Made by a program: the position numbers and the translations under genes. Of a stretch of 39,138 nt of DNA, positions 3,217 through 13,940 are shown in pieces. Under the pieces are notes generated by a model, which saw only the letters and a program-made list of their open reading frames with translations, made no database searches and was not told the DNA's origin. Position 1 is the first letter of the stretch. Every line of letters starts with the position of its first letter. Source of the DNA: Thermoplasmata archaeon (GTDB lineage: Archaea > Thermoplasmatota > Thermoplasmata > Lutacidiplasmatales > UBA184); the NCBI GenBank assembly GCA_021823345.1, contig JAKAOF010000012.1:1-39138 (forward strand). The letters run 5' to 3'.

Positions 3217-3642
3217 CTACTCGGTCTCCCCGTCGGCGAACTCGTTCTCCTCGTCCGGCGCTCCAACGAGCTCGGGTCCCTGGTCCACCCCACCCTGGCG
3301 CCCCGCACCGCTAAGGTCAGTGCGCGGAAGGTACGGGAACCGGCTCACGTGATGGCAGACCCCGCACGTGATCACGAGTTTCCCATCGCGGAGCCGCGGG
3401 CGGGACGTACTCCCGTATCGATACCAGGAGTTGCACTCGGAGCAGAACTGACGCCGGGCGGAGAGCGGAAGCCGCACGTTGTAGCGCATCCCGATCTTGC
3501 GCGCGAGGTCCACGTAACGACGGGAACGCTCGGCGTTCCCCCCCTGGATGGCCTTCTCCGCCATGCCGAGAAGACCGTCCATGCGCTCGCGGGCCACGCT
3601 CACCATGAGCGAGGTACGCACCCCGCGCCTTCCCCCCTTCAT
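3217..3642 (-). CDS. rnp4: Ribonuclease P protein component 4 (Rpp21/Rpr2 family)
   Basis: This 141-residue protein matches the archaeal Rnp4 pattern. An N-terminal helical part (ARERMDGLLGMAEKA) is followed by YVDLARKIGMRYNVRLP. A zinc ribbon with FCSECNSW and ITCGVCHH supplies four Cys, and it ends RFPY. Rnp4 pairs with Rnp1 on the specificity domain of RNase P RNA and aids 5' maturation of tRNA. I chose the ATG at 3642 because it overlaps the stop of the upstream zinc-ribbon gene as ATGA; a longer frame to 3708 would overlap that gene by about 70 bases. The acidic C-terminal tail (PDEENEFADGETE) is not part of the ribbon. Confidence 0.9.
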   Translation of the reverse strand: MKGGRRGVRTSLMVSVARERMDGLLGMAEKAIQGGNAERSRRYVDLARKIGMRYNVRLPLSARRQFCSECNSWYRYGSTSRPRLRDGKLVITCGVCHHVSRFPYLPRTDLSGAGRQGGVDQGPELVGAPDEENEFADGETE

Positions 3643-3974
3643 TGATGGCCGGCGCATATCGGGCATGCGACCGCCGCGGAGGAGATAATATTGTTGCAAT
3701 GCACGCACCGTTTTGCGTCAGGGGGAAGCTGCTCGACGACCCACGGCGGAGGAGGCACCCCTCCGCTGGAAGGAGGCGGCGTGGAACTGACCCGCGGTTC
3801 ACTCGATAGCGGGGGCGGCGGAGGTGGGGGAGGAGGGGGTGGAGGCGGTGGTGGGGGAGGTGGAGGGGGCGGAGGGACCGCTCCTCCCGGACCCGGCATT
3901 TGGACCTTGAGACACGACGGGCAGAAGATGGACCCATCCTCGATCGTGGTCCCGCAGTGCATGCAGTGGGCCAT
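3639..3974 (-). CDS. Double zinc-ribbon protein with a 22-residue polyproline linker
   Basis: This 111-residue protein is unrecognised as a family. It has a CxxC...CxxC zinc ribbon at the N-terminus (CMHC and CPSC) and a second at the C-terminus (CVHC and CPIC). Between them lie 22 consecutive prolines and a further Pro/Ser-rich stretch. The prolines use all four CCN codons in mixed order, so this is not a simple slipped repeat. A TATA box 26 bp upstream of the ATG predicts a leaderless transcript. The stop overlaps the rnp4 start (ATGA), so this is the first gene of a three-gene unit with rnp4 and the exonuclease. The zinc ribbons could bind RNA or a protein partner; its role is unknown. Confidence 0.8.
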   Translation of the reverse strand: MAHCMHCGTTIEDGSIFCPSCLKVQMPGPGGAVPPPPPPPPPPPPPPPPPPPPPPLSSEPRVSSTPPPSSGGVPPPPWVVEQLPPDAKRCVHCNNIISSAAVACPICAGHQ

Positions 3975-3995
3975 GGAAAGCCAGTTCGTCCGGGG

Positions 3996-4004
3996 TGTAT
4001 ATGG
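3996..4004 (-). promoter_or_regulatory. TATA box for the zinc-ribbon/rnp4/exonuclease unit
   Basis: The minus-strand element CCATATACA is centred about 26 bp upstream of the ATG at 3974, which predicts transcription starting at or next to the start codon. It separates this unit from the pst operon upstream. Confidence 0.55.
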
Positions 4005-4030
4005 ATTGCTCCCCGGGGAACGGTCGACCC

Positions 4031-4732
4031 TTAGCCCGGCGAGGACGTGGGGGGCCGATTGAGTTTGCCCGGTCCCTCTCCCGTCTCCATGTACACGACC
4101 CGACGGCCCACATTGACCGCGTGGTCGGCGATCCGCTCGAGGTAGCGTGAGACCAAGATGCACTGGACCCCCACCCGGGGAGGAAGGGACCCTTCCTCGA
4201 TCTGGTTGACGAGGTCGTCATAGAGCTCATCGTACAGGTCGTCAACGGCGTTGTCAAATTCCGCGATATCGCGGACGGACGCGGCGTCGTGGTTGGTGAA
4301 CGAACGGATCGCCGTGTCCACCATGTGGATCGTGAGGTCGGCCATGCGCTTCAACTTCTCCTGGTTCCGCGTCACGCTTTCCCGCCCGTTCTCCAAGGAG
4401 AGCGCCACCTCGGCGATGTCCCGGGCGTAGCGTCCGACCCGGTCGAGGTCCGTGACGATCTTGAGCGAGGTGGTGATGGTACGCAGGTCCTTCGCCACCG
4501 GGGCGTGCAGTGCGATCAGGTCGACGCACGTCTTCTCGATAACGTTCTGCAGGGCGTAGATCTCCCGGTCGAGGGTCGAGACCTCGCGGGCCTGGGCGGA
4601 ATCGGACTCGAGGAGACCTCCCATCGCCTTCCGGATGGCCATCTCGCTGATCTCAGCGAGGGTGATCATGTTCTCATTGAGCTTCGACAGGCCCTCGCCC
4701 AGGGCCATCCGGCGCGGTTTCTCCGGCTTCAT
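4031..4732 (-). CDS. phoU: Phosphate transport regulator PhoU
   Basis: This 233-residue all-helical protein has the two PhoU repeats: LAEISEMAIRKAMGGLLESD with VIEKTCVDLIALHAPVAKDLR, then DLTIHMVDTAIRSF with CILVSRYLERIADHAVNVGRRVVYM. The two metal-binding signatures (VGRYARDIAEVA and LERIADHAVN) are present. PhoU restrains phosphate import through the Pst transporter. The ATG at 4732 overlaps the pstB stop (ATGA), and it is the last gene of the operon. It is a second PhoU in the same operon besides the AbrB-PhoU regulator at 10051-11169; only that one carries a DNA-binding domain. Confidence 0.93.
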   Translation of the reverse strand: MKPEKPRRMALGEGLSKLNENMITLAEISEMAIRKAMGGLLESDSAQAREVSTLDREIYALQNVIEKTCVDLIALHAPVAKDLRTITTSLKIVTDLDRVGRYARDIAEVALSLENGRESVTRNQEKLKRMADLTIHMVDTAIRSFTNHDAASVRDIAEFDNAVDDLYDELYDDLVNQIEEGSLPPRVGVQCILVSRYLERIADHAVNVGRRVVYMETGEGPGKLNRPPTSSPG

Positions 4733-5727
4733 CCGAAACGCCCGGTGACGTAGCTTTCCGTCAGCTTCTCGCGCGGGTTCTCGAACAGCCGCTTCGTCTC
4801 GTCGAACTCGACGAGCTTGCCCTGGTAGAGGAACGCGGTCCGGTCGGCCACCCGGGCGGCCTGCTGCATGTTGTGCGTCACGATCACGACCGCATACTCC
4901 CGCTTGAGCTCGAACAGCAGATCTTCGACCTTCTGCGTGGCCGAGGGGTCGAGGCTGGAGGTGGGCTCGTCCAGCAGGAGGACCCGCGGATTGACCGCGA
5001 GGGCCCGGGCAATGCACAGGCGCTGCTGCTGACCTCCCGAAAGGGTGAGCGCGCTCCGGTTCAGGTTATCCTTGAGCTCCTCGTAGAGACCCGCCCGGCG
5101 CAGGGATTCGGTCACCCGTTCGCTGATCACGTCACGGCGTTCCCGGATCAACCGGAGACCGAAGGCCACGTTGTCGAAGATGGACATCGGGAACACCGTC
5201 GACCGTTGGAAGACCATCCCCACCCGCTGTCGGAGAAGGACCGGGTTCACGGACCGGGAGTGGATGTCCTGGCCCTTGTACTGTATCAGCCCCTTGACGC
5301 GCAGGCCGGGGGAAACATCGCTCATGCGGTTCAGGGTGCGGATGAAGGTGGTCTTGCCACACCCCGAGGGACCGATGAGAGCGGTGACCTCACGGTCGTT
5401 GAAGTCGAGGCTGATCCCGGAAAGGATGGGTTTCTTGCCCGCCCATACCCAGAGGTCCTTCACCGAGATGAGTGGAGCGACCGCGGCCGGGCCCCCGGGG
5501 GGCTGGGGGGTGCTCGCCATCTCCTCGAGGGGAGCGTTCTGCGTGGATTCTGATGGAGACATGTATCGAGTGCTCGACCGCCCCGCAACGGGCGACCCCA
5601 TGAACCCGGTACCCGGTATATCGTCTGCGTACCCCCCCGACGGAGACGCGGCGGAAGCCAACTGCATAGGACCCACGCCCGACCGAATGTCGCCCTTCGT
5701 TGGGACGAAATTCCTTCCCTCGACCAT
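4729..5727 (-). CDS. pstB: Phosphate ABC transporter ATP-binding protein
   Basis: The nucleotide-binding subunit of the high-affinity phosphate importer. From about residue 85 it has all ABC motifs: Walker A GPSGCGKTT, Q-loop MVFQRSTVFPMS, signature LSGGQQQR, Walker B VLLLDEPTSSLDP and switch His in IVTHNMQQA. It is 332 residues long, against about 250-260 for the family. The extra 80 or so N-terminal residues are polar and Ser/Pro/Gly-rich. The ATG overlaps the pstA stop (TGATG), which favours the long form; internal Met codons at positions 21, 43, 56 and 70 are alternatives. It overlaps phoU by four bases. Confidence 0.93.
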   Translation of the reverse strand: MVEGRNFVPTKGDIRSGVGPMQLASAASPSGGYADDIPGTGFMGSPVAGRSSTRYMSPSESTQNAPLEEMASTPQPPGGPAAVAPLISVKDLWVWAGKKPILSGISLDFNDREVTALIGPSGCGKTTFIRTLNRMSDVSPGLRVKGLIQYKGQDIHSRSVNPVLLRQRVGMVFQRSTVFPMSIFDNVAFGLRLIRERRDVISERVTESLRRAGLYEELKDNLNRSALTLSGGQQQRLCIARALAVNPRVLLLDEPTSSLDPSATQKVEDLLFELKREYAVVIVTHNMQQAARVADRTAFLYQGKLVEFDETKRLFENPREKLTESYVTGRFG

Positions 5728-6638
5728 CAGCCTACCAACCCCCGGAGCTTGCGGCGGTAGTGCTCCGAGATGATCTGGACCCCGACGTTGAGGGCGATCA
5801 CGATGAGGATGAGCAGGAACGCGGCTTGGAAGGCCAGGGTCTGGAAGCTACCGTACGTGGAGGGGAAGTCGTAGAAGTTCCAGATCGCTCCCGTGAGGTA
5901 TCCCGTGGGCTGAAGGAGATTGGTGGGAACGGTATTGCTCCAGCCCACCGTGAGGACGAGCGGGGCGGTCTCGCCCATCCCGAGGGCCATCGCCAGGAAG
6001 ACGCCCGAGAGGATCGTCGGCATCGCGATCGGGAACGCGACCCGCCGAAGGTACTGGAATCTCGATGCGCCCATCGCGAGCGCACCCTCCCGCTGGTCGT
6101 GCGGCACGTTGACGAAAGCGAGGTCGGTCGCGCGGTAGACGAAGGGGACCATGAAGATCCCGAGGGTGATCGCACCGGCGAGCGTGTTGTAGTCCCACTT
6201 GGTGTAGATCACCAAGAGGTAGAAACCGAAATAGCCGAGCACGATGGCCGGGACCCCCGCCAGGAGGTAACCGGCGACCCGGCCCGCCTCCGCCACCCGC
6301 CGCGGGGCGAACTCCGCGGTGTACATGCCGGCGAGCACCCCGATCCCGGTGGCGATGACCGTGGAGAGGATGAGGATGATGAAGGTCCCGACGATCATGG
6401 AGTGAAGCCCCCCCCCGGTCCCCACTTGGTTGAGGGTCAGGGTGTTCATCGTGAACGTGGGGAGGGCCTTCTCGCCGACCCAATAGAGCATGTCGGCGAG
6501 CGGAAAGAGCACGGCGAGGAAGGCGAGGAGCAGCACCCAACCGACGATCTTGTCGATCACGAAACGCAGCCGAAGGTGTCCCGGAGAATATCGGAGGATG
6601 TCCCCCGCAGGATTTCCGGTGGAGTTCTGGACCGCCAT
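5727..6638 (-). CDS. pstA: Phosphate ABC transporter permease PstA
   Basis: A 303-residue inner-membrane permease with about six transmembrane helices, starting with VGWVLLLAFLAVLFPLA. The coupling-helix motif is in EGALAMGASRFQYLRRVAFPIAM (EAA loop), the contact site for PstB. Together with PstC it forms the membrane channel for phosphate. A ribosome-binding site (AAGGTG) lies five bases before the ATG and overlaps the pstC stop region. The gene follows pstC by seven bases and overlaps pstB by one. Confidence 0.92.
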   Translation of the reverse strand: MAVQNSTGNPAGDILRYSPGHLRLRFVIDKIVGWVLLLAFLAVLFPLADMLYWVGEKALPTFTMNTLTLNQVGTGGGLHSMIVGTFIILILSTVIATGIGVLAGMYTAEFAPRRVAEAGRVAGYLLAGVPAIVLGYFGFYLLVIYTKWDYNTLAGAITLGIFMVPFVYRATDLAFVNVPHDQREGALAMGASRFQYLRRVAFPIAMPTILSGVFLAMALGMGETAPLVLTVGWSNTVPTNLLQPTGYLTGAIWNFYDFPSTYGSFQTLAFQAAFLLILIVIALNVGVQIISEHYRRKLRGLVG

Positions 6639-6646
6639 GGTGCACC

Positions 6647-7684
6647 TTAGTTGAGGGTCCCCGAGTTCCTGGAGCCGCGCGTGAGCCGGTGGCCGACGAT
6701 GTTCACTACAACACTGATGAGCAGAAGGATGAGGGCGAACTCGACGAGGACCTGGAGCAGCACCGGATAGGCGAAGGCACTGTCCTGTTGGTCAAGGATG
6801 TAGGCGGCGATCGTGTACCCCCCGGCATAGAGGCTGGGAGGGAGCTGGGGGGTCGCGCCGATGAGCATGGAGACGGCCACGCTCTCCCCGATCGCCCGAC
6901 CGAACCCAAGGAACAGGGCACCGAAGATCCCGGCCCGGGCCATCGGCAGGCGTACCTTGCGTACCACTTCCCACCGGGTGGCCCCAAGGGCGAGACCGGC
7001 TTCGATGGCACTGTGCGGGACGGCCCGCAGGGACTCCCGCATGATGGCGGTGGTGATCGGGATGATCATGATCGTGAGCACAAAGACGGCCAGGAGGATC
7101 CCGGTCCCGCCCCCGATGGCGAACGCGGGCCCGCCGAACCCCGGGAGCCAATACAGGGCGTCCCGAAGCGATGGCTCGAGGTTCTCGCCAAAGTACGGTG
7201 CTAAGACCACGAAGCCCCAGATGCCGAAGACGACGCTCGGGATGCCGGCCAAGAGGTCGGTAACGACCGTTAGGGCCCGGCTCGGGATCACGGGCAGATA
7301 GACCACGATGGAGATCGCCATGGCGAGGCTGAGAACGGTGGCAAGGAGCATGGCCAGCGAGGCCGTGAGGACGGAGCCGAGAGCAAAGTAGCCGATGCCG
7401 TAGCTGGATCCGGGTCCCGGAGGGATCCAGTTCCAGTCCGTGCCCCACAAGGACCATCCGAAATTGTGCAGGTCCGAGGCATAGAGCAGCACCCCGGCCA
7501 CCGCGGCGAGGAGGAACATGGGCAGGAGAGCGACCGGGCTGCCGAGCACCATCTTCCAGGTGATCCGGTCCCGCAATCGCTCGGGAGGCGGAAGGGTTGG
7601 AGCCGCCCCGGTGGGAACCCCCCCCTCGGGGGGGCCCGGCTCGCTCACCGGGGGCGGCTCAGGGGTTTTTGTTCTACGGTGCAA
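6647..7684 (-). CDS. pstC: Phosphate ABC transporter permease PstC
   Basis: A 345-residue permease with an N-terminal Pro-rich cytoplasmic segment, then about six helices. The EAA coupling loop reads EAGLALGATRWEVVRKVRLPMA, and GFGRAIGESVAVSMLIG is typical of PstC. The frame opens with TTG at 7684, 15 bases after the pstS stop. A G-rich ribosome-binding site (GGGGGAT) just upstream supports that start, and a GTG at 7648 is an alternative. The N-terminal part is coded across a C7/G7 inverted repeat (about 7622-7637), which could fold in the mRNA. Confidence 0.9.
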   Translation of the reverse strand: MHRRTKTPEPPPVSEPGPPEGGVPTGAAPTLPPPERLRDRITWKMVLGSPVALLPMFLLAAVAGVLLYASDLHNFGWSLWGTDWNWIPPGPGSSYGIGYFALGSVLTASLAMLLATVLSLAMAISIVVYLPVIPSRALTVVTDLLAGIPSVVFGIWGFVVLAPYFGENLEPSLRDALYWLPGFGGPAFAIGGGTGILLAVFVLTIMIIPITTAIMRESLRAVPHSAIEAGLALGATRWEVVRKVRLPMARAGIFGALFLGFGRAIGESVAVSMLIGATPQLPPSLYAGGYTIAAYILDQQDSAFAYPVLLQVLVEFALILLLISVVVNIVGHRLTRGSRNSGTLN

Positions 7685-7699
7685 AACTCGGAATCCCCC

Positions 7700-10054
7700 C
7701 TAAGATTGGGCTCCCACGGAGACCGAGTTCAGCGCCTGCATGTCGTACCCGATCACGGCGGCGGTCAGGGGCAGGAAGTTCACCTGTGCGGTGTACGATC
7801 CGCCGGCCTGAAGGCACCATTCCAGGAACTGCACGACGTAGAACTGCTTGGCCGCGTTCGTCGGGCTCGTCTTGACCAAGGTGTACTCGAGGTTCGTGTC
7901 CGGGTACGGGTTCGGGTAGGCCGCCGATGGGAGCGTGCCCCCTTGACCGAGCTTGAGGTCCGTCGCCCCGGGCACTCCGCCCAGGATGAGGCTCACGGCG
8001 ACGCTGGGCGGCTGGAGGTTCTCCAGACCCAAGTTCGCATCTTCGCTGATCGTGGTGGGGGTGGGCAGGATGTAGTTGGCTGGGTTGGTGCCGTTCACGT
8101 TCGCCGCCTGGTCTCCCAGGGCTGCGTATCCCAGTCCCGCGGCATTCGCCTCGCTCTCGTAGCTGATGCCGATGTAGGCGATCCCGTACTTCGTGGACTG
8201 CAGTCCCGTCACCATTCCGCTGTTGCCCTTGTATCCGGACTGTCCCGCGGGCCAGGTGATCGAGGTACCATAGCCAGCCGTCCATCCGTTCCAGGACATG
8301 TAGCACAGCGAGGTGAACATGAACGTGTCCCCGCTCCCGTCCGACCGGTGGAGGGGCACGATCGGGTTGCTGGGCAGGGTCACGCCAGGGTTCGCCGCCT
8401 GGATCTCAGGGTCGTTCCAGTTGGTGATCGCCCCTGCGTAGATCTTCGCCAGCACCGTCCCGTTCAGGTTCAGGTGCGCCGAGACTCCGGGCAGGTTGTA
8501 GTACACGAGCTGGGCCGAGATGGCGATGGGCACGTTGATGAGCCCATACTTGCTCGCATTGGCGGGGTCGAGGTACGCGTCCGTCCCGCCGATGTCGACC
8601 AAGCCCTGCTCGGCCGAGCTGATCCCAGTTCCGCTCCCCGTGCTGTCGGGGGAGATCTGGACGTTCGAGTAGAGCTTGGTGAAGTTCGGACCAAGGACCT
8701 GCATGTACGGGTAGATGAGCGAAGACCCTGTCTCACTCACCGTGAAGCTCGTGAGACCGCTGGGCCCTGACACCGACACCGAGTTGAGGGCCTCCATGTC
8801 GTATCCGATCACCGCCGCCGTCAGGGGCAGGAAGTTCACCTGTGCGGTGTACGATCCGCCGGCCTGCAACGACCACTCCAGGAACTTGACCACGTAGAAC
8901 TGCTTGGCCGCGTTCGTTGGGCTTGTCTTGACCAAGGTGTACTCGAGGTTCGTGTCCGGGTACGGGTTCGGGTAGGTCGTCGACGGGAGCGTGCCCCCTT
9001 GACCGAGCTTGAGGTCCGTCGCCCCGGGCACTCCGCCCAGGATGAGGCTCACGGCGACGCTGGGCGGCTGGAGGTTCTCCAGACCCAAGTTCGCATCTTC
9101 GCTGATCGTGGTGGGGGTGGGCAGGATGTAGTTGGCTGGGTTGGTGCCGTTCACGTTCGCCGCCTGGTCTCCCAGGGCTGCGTATCCCAGTCCCGCGGCA
9201 TTCGCCTCGCTCTCGTAGCTGATGCCGATGTAGGCGATCCCGTACTTCGTGGACTGCAGTCCCGTCACCATTCCGCTGTTGCCCTTGTATCCGGACTGTC
9301 CCGCGGGCCAGGTGATCGAGGTACCATAGCCAGCCGTCCATCCGTTCCAGGACATGTAGCACAGCGAGGTGAACATGAACGTGTCCCCGCTCCCGTCCGA
9401 CCGGTGGAGGGGCACGATCGGGTTGCTGGGCAGGGTCACGCCAGGGTTCGCCGCCTGGATCTCAGGGTCGTTCCAGTTGGTGATCGCCCCTGCGTAGATC
9501 TTCGCCAGCACCGTCCCGTTCAGGTTCAGGTGCGCCGAGACTCCGGGCAGGTTGTAGTACACGAGCTGGGCCGAGATGGCGATGGGCACGTTGATGAGCC
9601 CATACTTGCTCGCATTGGCGGGGTCGAGGTACGCGTCCGTCCCGCCGATGTCGACCAAGCCCTGCTCGGCCGAGCTGATCCCAGTTCCGCTCCCCGTGCT
9701 GTCGGGGGAGATCTGGACGTTAGGGTAGAGCTTGGTGAAGTTCGGACCAAGCACTTGCATGTACGGGTAGATCAGCGAGGATCCGGTCTCACTGATCGTG
9801 TAGGCAGTGGGACCCCCACAGCCCGAAGTGCAGGTAGTATTGTTGTTGTTGCCACCACCCGACGAGCTCTTTCCTTTGTAGACGTACTCGTAGTAGTAGA
9901 ATGACCCGGCGATCCCGGCGATGACCAGCACGGCCACCAATGCGATGGCCATTCCCTTGCTTCCGCCCTTACCGGCAGATTTGGGAGAGGTCTGGCTTGG
10001 ACCCGAGATCGAGTCCTCCGAGTGCGCTGTTGACGAGGGATTCTTCGCACTCAT
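7700..10054 (-). CDS. pstS: Phosphate-binding protein PstS with two tandem, nearly identical domains
   Basis: A membrane-anchored substrate-binding protein that captures phosphate outside the cell for PstCA. Residues 30-55 form a signal-anchor helix (GMAIALVAVLVIAGIAG), followed by a Gly/Ser/Asn-rich linker. Two PstS domains then follow, repeating with a 352-residue period. Each has the phosphate-site motifs ISPDSTGSGTGI, VDIGGTDAYL and PLHRSDGSGDTFMF. At 784 residues it is about twice the family norm. The DNA repeats with a 1056-bp period and is identical over 738 bp. The ATG overlaps the stop of the AbrB-PhoU regulator (ATGA). Both domains keep the ligand motifs, so both probably bind phosphate. 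Confidence 0.92.
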   Translation of the reverse strand: MSAKNPSSTAHSEDSISGPSQTSPKSAGKGGSKGMAIALVAVLVIAGIAGSFYYYEYVYKGKSSSGGGNNNNTTCTSGCGGPTAYTISETGSSLIYPYMQVLGPNFTKLYPNVQISPDSTGSGTGISSAEQGLVDIGGTDAYLDPANASKYGLINVPIAISAQLVYYNLPGVSAHLNLNGTVLAKIYAGAITNWNDPEIQAANPGVTLPSNPIVPLHRSDGSGDTFMFTSLCYMSWNGWTAGYGTSITWPAGQSGYKGNSGMVTGLQSTKYGIAYIGISYESEANAAGLGYAALGDQAANVNGTNPANYILPTPTTISEDANLGLENLQPPSVAVSLILGGVPGATDLKLGQGGTLPSTTYPNPYPDTNLEYTLVKTSPTNAAKQFYVVKFLEWSLQAGGSYTAQVNFLPLTAAVIGYDMEALNSVSVSGPSGLTSFTVSETGSSLIYPYMQVLGPNFTKLYSNVQISPDSTGSGTGISSAEQGLVDIGGTDAYLDPANASKYGLINVPIAISAQLVYYNLPGVSAHLNLNGTVLAKIYAGAITNWNDPEIQAANPGVTLPSNPIVPLHRSDGSGDTFMFTSLCYMSWNGWTAGYGTSITWPAGQSGYKGNSGMVTGLQSTKYGIAYIGISYESEANAAGLGYAALGDQAANVNGTNPANYILPTPTTISEDANLGLENLQPPSVAVSLILGGVPGATDLKLGQGGTLPSAAYPNPYPDTNLEYTLVKTSPTNAAKQFYVVQFLEWCLQAGGSYTAQVNFLPLTAAVIGYDMQALNSVSVGAQS
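7722..8741. repeat. pstS: PstS domain repeat, copy encoding the C-terminal domain
   Basis: This repeats at an offset of 1056 bp the segment 8778-9797. By eye, positions 7928-8665 (738 bp) are identical between the copies. The outer 206 bp at the low-coordinate end hold about 20 differences, and the outer 76 bp at the other end about ten. Confidence 0.95.
8778..9797. repeat. pstS: PstS domain repeat, copy encoding the N-terminal domain
   Basis: Partner of the 7722-8741 repeat in direct orientation. A 36-bp stretch (8742-8777) encoding a short Ser/Gly/Pro/Thr linker separates the copies. The identical core corresponds to 8984-9721 here. Confidence 0.95.
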
Positions 10055-11169
10055 GCAGAATTCCTCTTCGACGCGCTCCGGCTTTCTTTCCGCGGTAGGG
10101 GAGACTTGCGTTCCTCGCTTTCGTTCATAGACCTTTGCTGGGGATGGGAGAAGACGCCCGCGGGGGTGTCCATCACGAGCTCACCGACATCGGCGAGGTG
10201 ACGGGCGACCCGCACCAGGGCATCGAGTACGACGGAAACGGAGGGCAAGCACTCTCCGGCCATCTTGCCGGATTTGGTGAGCCGAACGGCTTCGAGCACG
10301 AGCGCCGAGCGCTCGGCTTCGAACGCGCTCACCTGATCGATGTACTCGTTCGCCGAGAGCACGTTGTGCCCCCGGAGGACTTCCGGACCACGGGAGAGCA
10401 TCTCGAGGGCGCGCTCGTGCAGATTGTTGATGTGCACCATGTAGGAGGAAGGCGGGGGTGAGCCGGCCAGTTTCTCTTGCTCCTCCTCGATATGGACCGC
10501 GAGATCGGCGATCCGCTCCCACGTTCGGGAAAGGAGCAAGAGGGGGATCGCCTCCTTTGCAGAGAAGCGGTCCCCATGGTCACCGGCGCGGGTGAGAGCG
10601 CGCCGGACCTGCCAGCCGAGCCGGTCGACCTCGTCGTCCCGGCTTGCTAGATGGAAAGAATGGGTGAAGGGAAGATCGCTCCACCGCGAAGAAAGGTTCG
10701 AGTGCATCTCGACCGCGATGCTGTGCATCCGCTCGATGCGACCCTCGATCGGGATCTCGACCGAGCCGAGGTCCCGGAACTCGACCCGCCCGGGATCTTC
10801 GGACACGACGACCATGGAACCGGTGCGCCGGGCGAACTCGCGAACGGCCCGGGAAGGAATGCCTTCCTTCTTGTCGGATTCGAGCAGGATATCGGAGTGT
10901 CCCTGGAGGAACCCCCCGAGGAGCTCCCGGAACACGTGAACGTCCCCGTCATGGGCGCCCAGGGTGAATCGCTCCGAGGTTTCCGACCGAGGAGCATCGA
11001 TGACGAAGGAGTCCGGGCGATACCGACGCAACCGCATGACTTTCCCGCGGTTCCACCCACCTTCGGAAACCCAAACGGTGGGGATCGTGACGGCGTAGGA
11101 GTTGCCCGACCGGCGAAGCTTGAGGTGGACCTCCTCGGCACGGTTCATTGGGGTCTGACTGTCCCGCAT
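10051..11169 (-). CDS. AbrB-PhoU phosphate uptake regulator
   Basis: A 372-residue fusion. An N-terminal SpoVT/AbrB-type DNA-binding hairpin (LKLRRSGNSYAVTIPTVWV, residues 16-34) is followed by a swapped-hairpin partner strand, a linker region and a C-terminal PhoU domain. PhoU signatures are SRTWERIADLAVHIEEEQE and VVLDALVRVARHLADVGELVMD. This architecture is known in archaea at the head of pst operons, where it is predicted to sense transporter state and control transcription. It is the first gene of the operon and overlaps pstS by ATGA. A TATA box lies about 31 bp upstream. The ATG at 11148 is an alternative start. The basic tail (KRNSA end) is polar and probably disordered. Confidence 0.9.
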   Translation of the reverse strand: MRDSQTPMNRAEEVHLKLRRSGNSYAVTIPTVWVSEGGWNRGKVMRLRRYRPDSFVIDAPRSETSERFTLGAHDGDVHVFRELLGGFLQGHSDILLESDKKEGIPSRAVREFARRTGSMVVVSEDPGRVEFRDLGSVEIPIEGRIERMHSIAVEMHSNLSSRWSDLPFTHSFHLASRDDEVDRLGWQVRRALTRAGDHGDRFSAKEAIPLLLLSRTWERIADLAVHIEEEQEKLAGSPPPSSYMVHINNLHERALEMLSRGPEVLRGHNVLSANEYIDQVSAFEAERSALVLEAVRLTKSGKMAGECLPSVSVVLDALVRVARHLADVGELVMDTPAGVFSHPQQRSMNESEERKSPLPRKESRSASKRNSA

Positions 11170-12515: not shown

Positions 12516-13940
12516 ATGAGCGAGCTACCGGCCAAGGAACAGGCGTTCTTCGAGTGGTACAACGAAGTCCTCGAGCGCTCGGGCATCACCGACAAGCGCT
12601 ACCCCATCAAGGGGATGAACGTCTGGACGCCCTTCGGGCAGAAGACTTCCTCGCTCCTGGACCGGCTCATCCGGTCCCGGATCGAGCCGCTGCTCTATGA
12701 AGAGGTCAACTTCCCGACCCTCATCCCGGAAACGGAGTTCCGAAAGGAAGGGGACCACATCAAGGGGTTCGACGAGCAGGTCTACTGGGTGACCCACGGG
12801 GGCCGTACCGAACTCGATGTGAAGCTCGCCCTCCGTCCCACGAGCGAGACGGCGATGTATCCCATGTTCGCACTGTGGGTCCGCTCGCACAAGGACCTAC
12901 CCCTTCGCGTGTACCAGATCGTCTCGGTGTTCCGGTACGAGACCAAGACCACTCGGCCGTTCATCCGCGTGCGGGAGATCCACTTCTTCGAGGGTCACAC
13001 GGCCCACCTGGATGGTCCGCGGGCCGAGGAACAGGTCCGCGCCGATATCGGCTCCTTCGACGAGATATCCCGCGCCCTCTGCCTCCCCCACCTCCGGGTC
13101 CGACGGCCGGACTGGGACAAATTCCCTGGCGCGCACTATTCGATCGCCTTCGACCTGCCGCTCGGTGGATCGAAGACGCTGCAGATCGGGACCGTGCACT
13201 ACTACCGGGACAACTTCGCCCGGGCCTATGGTATCGGCTACGAGGATGCCCAGGGCAACCGGCAGCTTCCGCACCAGACCACCTACGGGATCTCGGAGCG
13301 GATACTGGGTGCCGTGATCGCCCTGCATGGGGACGAGAAGGGATTGGTACTTCCCACCATCATCGCGCCCATCCAAGTGGTCGTGATCCCGATCATGGGC
13401 AAGGAGCCGGCCGAGGGGCTGGTCGAACACGCCCAAGGATTGGTCCAGGCCCTCACCGACGCGGGCCTGCGCGCCAGGCTGGACGCATCCGATGAGCGCC
13501 CCGGAGCCAAGTACTACGCCTGGGAACTCAAGGGGGTCGCTTTGCGTATCGAGGTCGGCCGCAAGGAGCTCCAGGCACGCACGGTCACCTTGGTGAACCG
13601 CCTGGGCGTCCGTTCCACCCTGGACGTCGATGAGCTCGTCTCGGGGGTGCGGAGCGCCCTCGCGGACTTCGATCAAGCCCTGTGGACCCGAGGGCTCAAT
13701 GCGCTCATGTCCCGTTTGCACCGGGTAGCTCCCGGAGAGAAGCTCGACCCGGAGAAGGTCAACGTGATCGGCTGGTGCGGGCAGGAGAAGTGCGGGAAGG
13801 ACGTGGAGAATACCGCGGGGCTGAGCCTCCTCGGGACGCTCGAGGATGCCACGCACTTCGATGGGCTTCCGAGCCCGGTCTGCCACTTCTGCGGTAATTC
13901 CTCTGGCGCGGTGTGGGCCCTCGCCGCCCGCCCCCTGTAG
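12516..13940 (+). CDS. proS: Prolyl-tRNA synthetase, archaeal/eukaryotic type
   Basis: A 474-residue class II synthetase that charges tRNA-Pro. Motif 1 lies in the region leading to NFPTLIPE, motif 2 is FRYETKTTRPFIRVREIHFFEGHTAH (split across a loop) and motif 3 is GISERILGAVIALHGDEKGL followed by LPTIIAPIQVVVIPI. The anticodon-binding domain follows. The C-terminal zinc domain characteristic of the archaeal type has CGQEKC and CHFC. There is no editing insertion between motifs 2 and 3, as expected for this type. Length and order are normal. It ends 38 bases before the convergent RnfD-like gene, with two small stem-loops between. Confidence 0.96.
   Translation: MSELPAKEQAFFEWYNEVLERSGITDKRYPIKGMNVWTPFGQKTSSLLDRLIRSRIEPLLYEEVNFPTLIPETEFRKEGDHIKGFDEQVYWVTHGGRTELDVKLALRPTSETAMYPMFALWVRSHKDLPLRVYQIVSVFRYETKTTRPFIRVREIHFFEGHTAHLDGPRAEEQVRADIGSFDEISRALCLPHLRVRRPDWDKFPGAHYSIAFDLPLGGSKTLQIGTVHYYRDNFARAYGIGYEDAQGNRQLPHQTTYGISERILGAVIALHGDEKGLVLPTIIAPIQVVVIPIMGKEPAEGLVEHAQGLVQALTDAGLRARLDASDERPGAKYYAWELKGVALRIEVGRKELQARTVTLVNRLGVRSTLDVDELVSGVRSALADFDQALWTRGLNALMSRLHRVAPGEKLDPEKVNVIGWCGQEKCGKDVENTAGLSLLGTLEDATHFDGLPSPVCHFCGNSSGAVWALAARPL

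Follow-up and report, generated by a model that had tools for sequence, protein, structure and literature searches.

How can a single gene hold two copies of one domain whose DNA is identical, base for base, through the middle and plainly diverged at both ends? The question is raised by a pstS gene in the window, the 39,138-nucleotide stretch of Thermoplasmata DNA analysed here. A sequence-only reading of the locus had described one 784-residue PstS with two phosphate-binding domains and a DNA period of 1056 bp, and both the open reading frame and the matches to families TIGR00975 and PF12849 agree with that description. The account favoured here, with a probability of roughly 0.83, is that a two-headed PstS would have arisen by in-frame duplication, after which its core was overwritten by gene conversion or by paired unequal crossovers.

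The gene lies at 7700..10054 on the minus strand, as do all of its parts and the operon genes named below. TIGR00975 matches the protein with 458.7 bits, against a cut-off of 205, in two stretches that place both heads in the family, and PF12849 likewise matches in two stretches. An N-terminal hydrophobic segment (aa 34-58; 9881..9955), read directly from the translation and resembled by a segment of the protein from the sister species G004, would serve as a membrane anchor and is followed by a Ser/Gly/Asn-rich linker. Head 1 spans about aa 85-429 (8768..9802) and head 2 about aa 437-781 (7712..8746), with an inter-head linker at about aa 430-436 (8747..8767); the junction has the same position in G004. 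The solved structure nearest in sequence to head 2 is Mycobacterium tuberculosis PstS1 (1pc3, 7dm1; E about 5e-68). The motifs ETGSSL, STGSGTGI, GGTDAYL and HRSDGSGDT are present in both heads, and 12 relatives show no variation in the ligand-site motifs. The product is best read as the phosphate-binding component of a Pst importer in a form with two heads, both predicted to bind phosphate. Whereas a PstS chain usually has a single binding domain, and the solved chains matched here are of one-domain size (about 250-380 residues), this one has two; judged by its family matches it is a variant architecture, each head of which is a family member. An AlphaFold2 model of the whole protein, built from 12 sequences, was unusable (mean pLDDT 36), and a scan of viral contigs returned no match.

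Downstream of pstS the operon continues with one copy each of pstC, pstA, pstB and phoU. The permease genes are pstC (6647..7684; TIGR02138, 223 bits, cut-off 196) and pstA (5727..6638), the latter identified by its operon position together with a TIGR00974 score of 190.5 bits, just below the cut-off of 193.45. The ATPase gene pstB (4729..5727) scores 356 bits with TIGR00972 (cut-off 343), and phoU, listed as an ORF at 4031..5017 inside which its true start probably lies, scores 181.6 bits with TIGR02135 (cut-off 130). pstS and pstC are separate ORFs, with no fusion of the GlnPQ type to the permease. Directly upstream of pstS, and overlapping it by 4 bp, is a gene for a PhoU-domain protein (10051..11169, minus strand; PF01895, 40.7 bits; synteny), which adjoins pstS in the window, in G001 and in G004; in G003 its sole match is distant and on another contig. 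The N-terminus of this protein looks by eye like an AbrB-type DNA-binding segment, without a Pfam match. Near the pst operon there is a prolyl-tRNA synthetase homologue, both in the window's genus (12516-13940 in the window) and in a distant multi-headed family (G428, G505, G510). Just downstream of phoU, the ORF at 3639-4163 encodes a product whose two ends are cysteine-rich and resemble zinc ribbons, with a long stretch of prolines between them.

When the two heads are compared at the 1056-bp period, the longest exact run is 737 bp, at 8985..9721 in head 1 and 7929..8665 in head 2. The identical core reported by the sequence-only reading thus stands, and its length and start require correction: the 738 bp given for 7928-8665 and 8984-9721 are one base too many, as base 8984/7928, the third base of codon 357/709, differs (CCG/CCA). 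The outer ends are diverged, as had been claimed, with 11 differences in 81 positions on the N-terminal side (9722..9802 in head 1, partner 8666-8746) and 22 in 216 on the C-terminal side (8768..8984, partner 7712-7928). Core codons thus show 0 differences in 735 positions versus 33 in 297 for the flanks (Fisher p = 4e-19), and when the 33 differences were placed at random 20,000 times, a 737-bp run arose in 0. The absence of differences in 735 positions sets a 95% upper bound of 0.4% on core divergence. Identical runs left in the window flanks are all shorter than 55 bp, the longest being 53 and 52.

Synonymous sites place these differences in time. None of the 245 core codons differs between the window heads, and core dS is 0 within the window gene and 0 within the G004 gene; between species, the same core has 74 synonymous codon differences (window versus G001; dS 0.67) or 81 (window versus G004; dS 0.84). 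In the flanks, head 1 and head 2 of the window differ with a dS of 0.56 (N-terminal) and 0.37 (C-terminal), values comparable with the 0.55 and 0.49 found there for window versus G001, so that the heads would have parted at about the window/G001 split or not long after. Orthologue divergence between the window and G001 is even along the domain, at about 12-15%, and the core is therefore not intrinsically frozen. Overwriting of the core would then have come much later than the parting of the heads. The earlier judgement that a simple recent duplication fits poorly is borne out by this combination of an identical core, flanks of high dS and evenly diverged orthologues.

The named relatives examined are metagenome-assembled Thermoplasmata archaea. 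A first search of 101 genomes found a full-length PstS match of 79% identity in G004, of the same genus, whose 770-aa protein also has two domains, with a period of 1053 bp, an 818-bp identical core and a diverged C-terminal flank. Recurrence of the two-domain architecture in this separately binned genome argues against assembly expansion. It also allowed the proposed comparison of halves within and between species: in both two-headed species the halves within a gene are more alike than orthologous halves, the window and G004 being 80% identical over the core. Concerted evolution is thus seen in two species of one genus, silent sites included, and in trees the heads cluster by species, with support of 100% for the core and 94-99% for the C-terminal flank. 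In the tree of that flank (7712-7928, 8768-8984), the head 2 branch is the longer in both species (0.084 vs 0.027; 0.113 vs 0.050).

The two-headed form is unusual, as had been proposed: when 106 genomes of the order were searched with a query across the head junction, the window's genome and G004 alone matched it without a break. A ProRS tree places the single-headed G003 outside the group of the window, G001, G002 and G004. Most simply, two heads in the window and G004 reflect one gain followed by homogenisation; separate duplications may also have occurred, since the flanks too cluster by species. Site patterns favour a head split older than the species split at 4 sites and the opposite pairing at 3, numbers too small to establish that the duplication arose once. 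A further case is suggested, though not decisively, by G001 and G002: the G001 contig ends 5 bases past its domain match, the G002 contig begins inside its match, and their overlap differs at 12 of 216 flank sites and 2 of 156 core sites, neighbouring DNA being 96.7% identical.

The architecture is not unique to this genus, however. A profile built from the window and G004 proteins was searched over 390 genomes of the phylum, and in another family of the class it revealed two heads in G442 and G471 (690-codon open frames). Three heads were found in G428 of that family, in a 1019-codon open frame with a period of 987 bp, and within the order of that genome G505 has three heads and G510 two; in a further family G532 and G533 have two, the G533 gene holding a few unknown bases and running to the contig end. 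In all, two other families of the class hold seven multi-headed genes. Single heads are found in G504 and G535, and in G508 the contig stops within the gene, which retains one head and some of the next. Homologues of pstC, pstA and pstB lie downstream in those tested loci that have enough downstream sequence.

In these other genes, overall identity between heads is about 70-76%, and in a tree built from the C-terminal part the heads sort largely by position across species, which indicates that the duplications are old. Against this background, exact tracts stand out between heads 1 and 3 in G428 (131 bp) and G505 (113 bp), and in the two-headed genes G510 (116 bp), G532 (85 bp), G442 (83 bp) and G471 (54 bp). 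In the window, G004, G428, G442, G471, G505, G510 and G532 the tracts are longer than expected by chance, at a permutation p of about 0.0003 that is the floor of the test, per pair and uncorrected for the number of pairs. Conversion-like tracts thus occur in three lineages. The C-terminal ends of the other-family heads tend to be the least alike, and conversion in patches that spares the ends looks general, with the window gene its apparent extreme form. In G428 and G505, head 2 lacks the exact tract of heads 1 and 3 at that length; the G505 frame, like that of G428, has 1019 codons and a period of 987 bp. When the domains of all families were placed in one nucleotide tree, the branch between families was very long, and neither the root of that tree nor the order within the window group was used.

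The sequence-only reading had offered conversion of the core or selection for sameness as the better fits. Within-species likeness supports the first, while the second, as sole cause, fails on the synonymous data. Purifying selection keeping both binding domains the same would account for the invariant ligand-site motifs of 12 relatives and for a low dN, but zero synonymous differences in the core within the gene, set against 74-81 between species and beside flanks of dS 0.37-0.56, rules out selection on amino acids alone, and this explanation can hardly be entertained. Also very improbable is that each species duplicated one domain recently and on its own, and that the flanks then changed more quickly. 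The clustering of heads by species, in the core and in the C-terminal flank, and the small number of sites favouring a shared origin are as such a history would predict; 737-818 bp unchanged beside flanks of dS 0.11-0.56, orthologues that diverge evenly and a junction at the same place in both species are not. Independent duplication could hold for the origin of the heads, but the identity of the core would still need later overwriting.

An artefact is somewhat easier to imagine, and still unlikely. A de Bruijn assembler could merge core differences lying between shared k-mers, while the outer ends, where no bubble closes, would stay as they were; an identical core with diverged ends is what this predicts, the relatives' contigs bear SPAdes-style NODE names, and flank runs all below 55 bp are what a final k of 55 would leave. 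When collapse was simulated with k of at least 55 and clean k-mers forced at both edges, however, merging of the full 737 bp was likely only up to about 2% divergence, fell to about 35-50% at 3% and 6-8% at 5%, and was seen in 0 of 3,000 trials at 11%. The bulge limits in this simulation are SPAdes values, and the window's own assembler may differ. With collapse limited to about 2-3%, the core would be several-fold more alike than the flanks even if it had been collapsed. Collapse also requires shared k-mers on either side of a tract, and the 83-131-bp tracts, set in backgrounds of about 70-76% identity, have none. In the window core a few differences may nonetheless have been merged, and near-identical tandem domains in metagenome assemblies call for read-level checks.

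The identity pattern and concerted evolution, taken together, support gene conversion or equivalent unequal crossing-over. In the proposed sequence of events, in-frame tandem duplication of a PstS domain would have given two heads, which diverged first, as the dS of the flanks suggests. One head would subsequently have supplied the 737-bp core of the other, through intragenic gene conversion or, with the same outcome, through a pair of unequal crossovers; as to the molecular route, conversion and repeated unequal crossing-over are indistinguishable here. Overwriting would have spared the stretches bordering the unique linker and the two termini of the gene. By this account the same process also acted in G004 and, in patches, in the multi-headed PstS genes of other Thermoplasmata.

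By analogy with GlnPQ, the product may act as a membrane-anchored tandem receptor serving one PstCAB, in which two equivalent phosphate sites would face a single importer. The benefit, which the sequence-only reading had looked for in a possible gain in capture at low phosphate, would be that each anchor carries more binding sites while both heads offer PstCA the same docking face. Conversion may be favoured since one and the same PstCA has to receive either head, an argument like that made for mtrA (PMC4632066). Because the heads are identical, capacity rather than wider specificity would be gained. A broader proposal is offered tentatively and is open to considerable doubt, namely that Thermoplasmata repeatedly build PstS with one to three heads and that conversion keeps these interchangeable, adding capture sites per anchor while compatibility with a single PstCAB is kept. 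One class of archaea may in any case provide a compact natural record of intragenic conversion in genes of one, two and three heads, with stages from about 70% identity with patches to a completely uniform core. The analysis adds to the earlier reading a sister species, a dating from synonymous sites, a bound on the assembly artefact, and relatives with two or three heads that carry conversion-like tracts.

A literature search for tandem PstS, with subscription papers mostly outside its coverage, found no report, and the closest comparisons are with systems that share one or other feature. With the PstS family itself (TIGR00975; M. tuberculosis PstS1, 1pc3), the similarity lies in heads that each match over their length, in the shared motifs and in the pstC-pstA-pstB-phoU operon; two complete domains per chain and a 737-bp identical DNA core set the present gene apart. 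GlnPQ of Lactococcus lactis is likewise an ABC importer served by two binding domains in series, and these are able to act independently of each other (PMC8025302). The GlnPQ domains, however, are part of the permease chain and have different specificities and affinities, whereas the PstS heads belong to a protein of their own and are nearly identical; their sameness points to capacity or avidity, which could be tested by removing one head. A survey of recurrent concerted evolution in prokaryotes covers 26 genes in which, as here, paralogues within a species are closer than orthologues, at synonymous sites too, but it treats separate genes, and PstS and ABC transporters do not figure in its main text (PMC6053082). 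In the methanogen pair mtrA-1 and mtrA-2, gene conversion over a long time has kept a shared domain uniform, and the parts attached to it have diverged (PMC4632066); these archaeal paralogues resemble the PstS heads in both respects. The mtrA copies are two adjacent genes, whereas the PstS copies are two domains of one gene, and number from one to three among its relatives.
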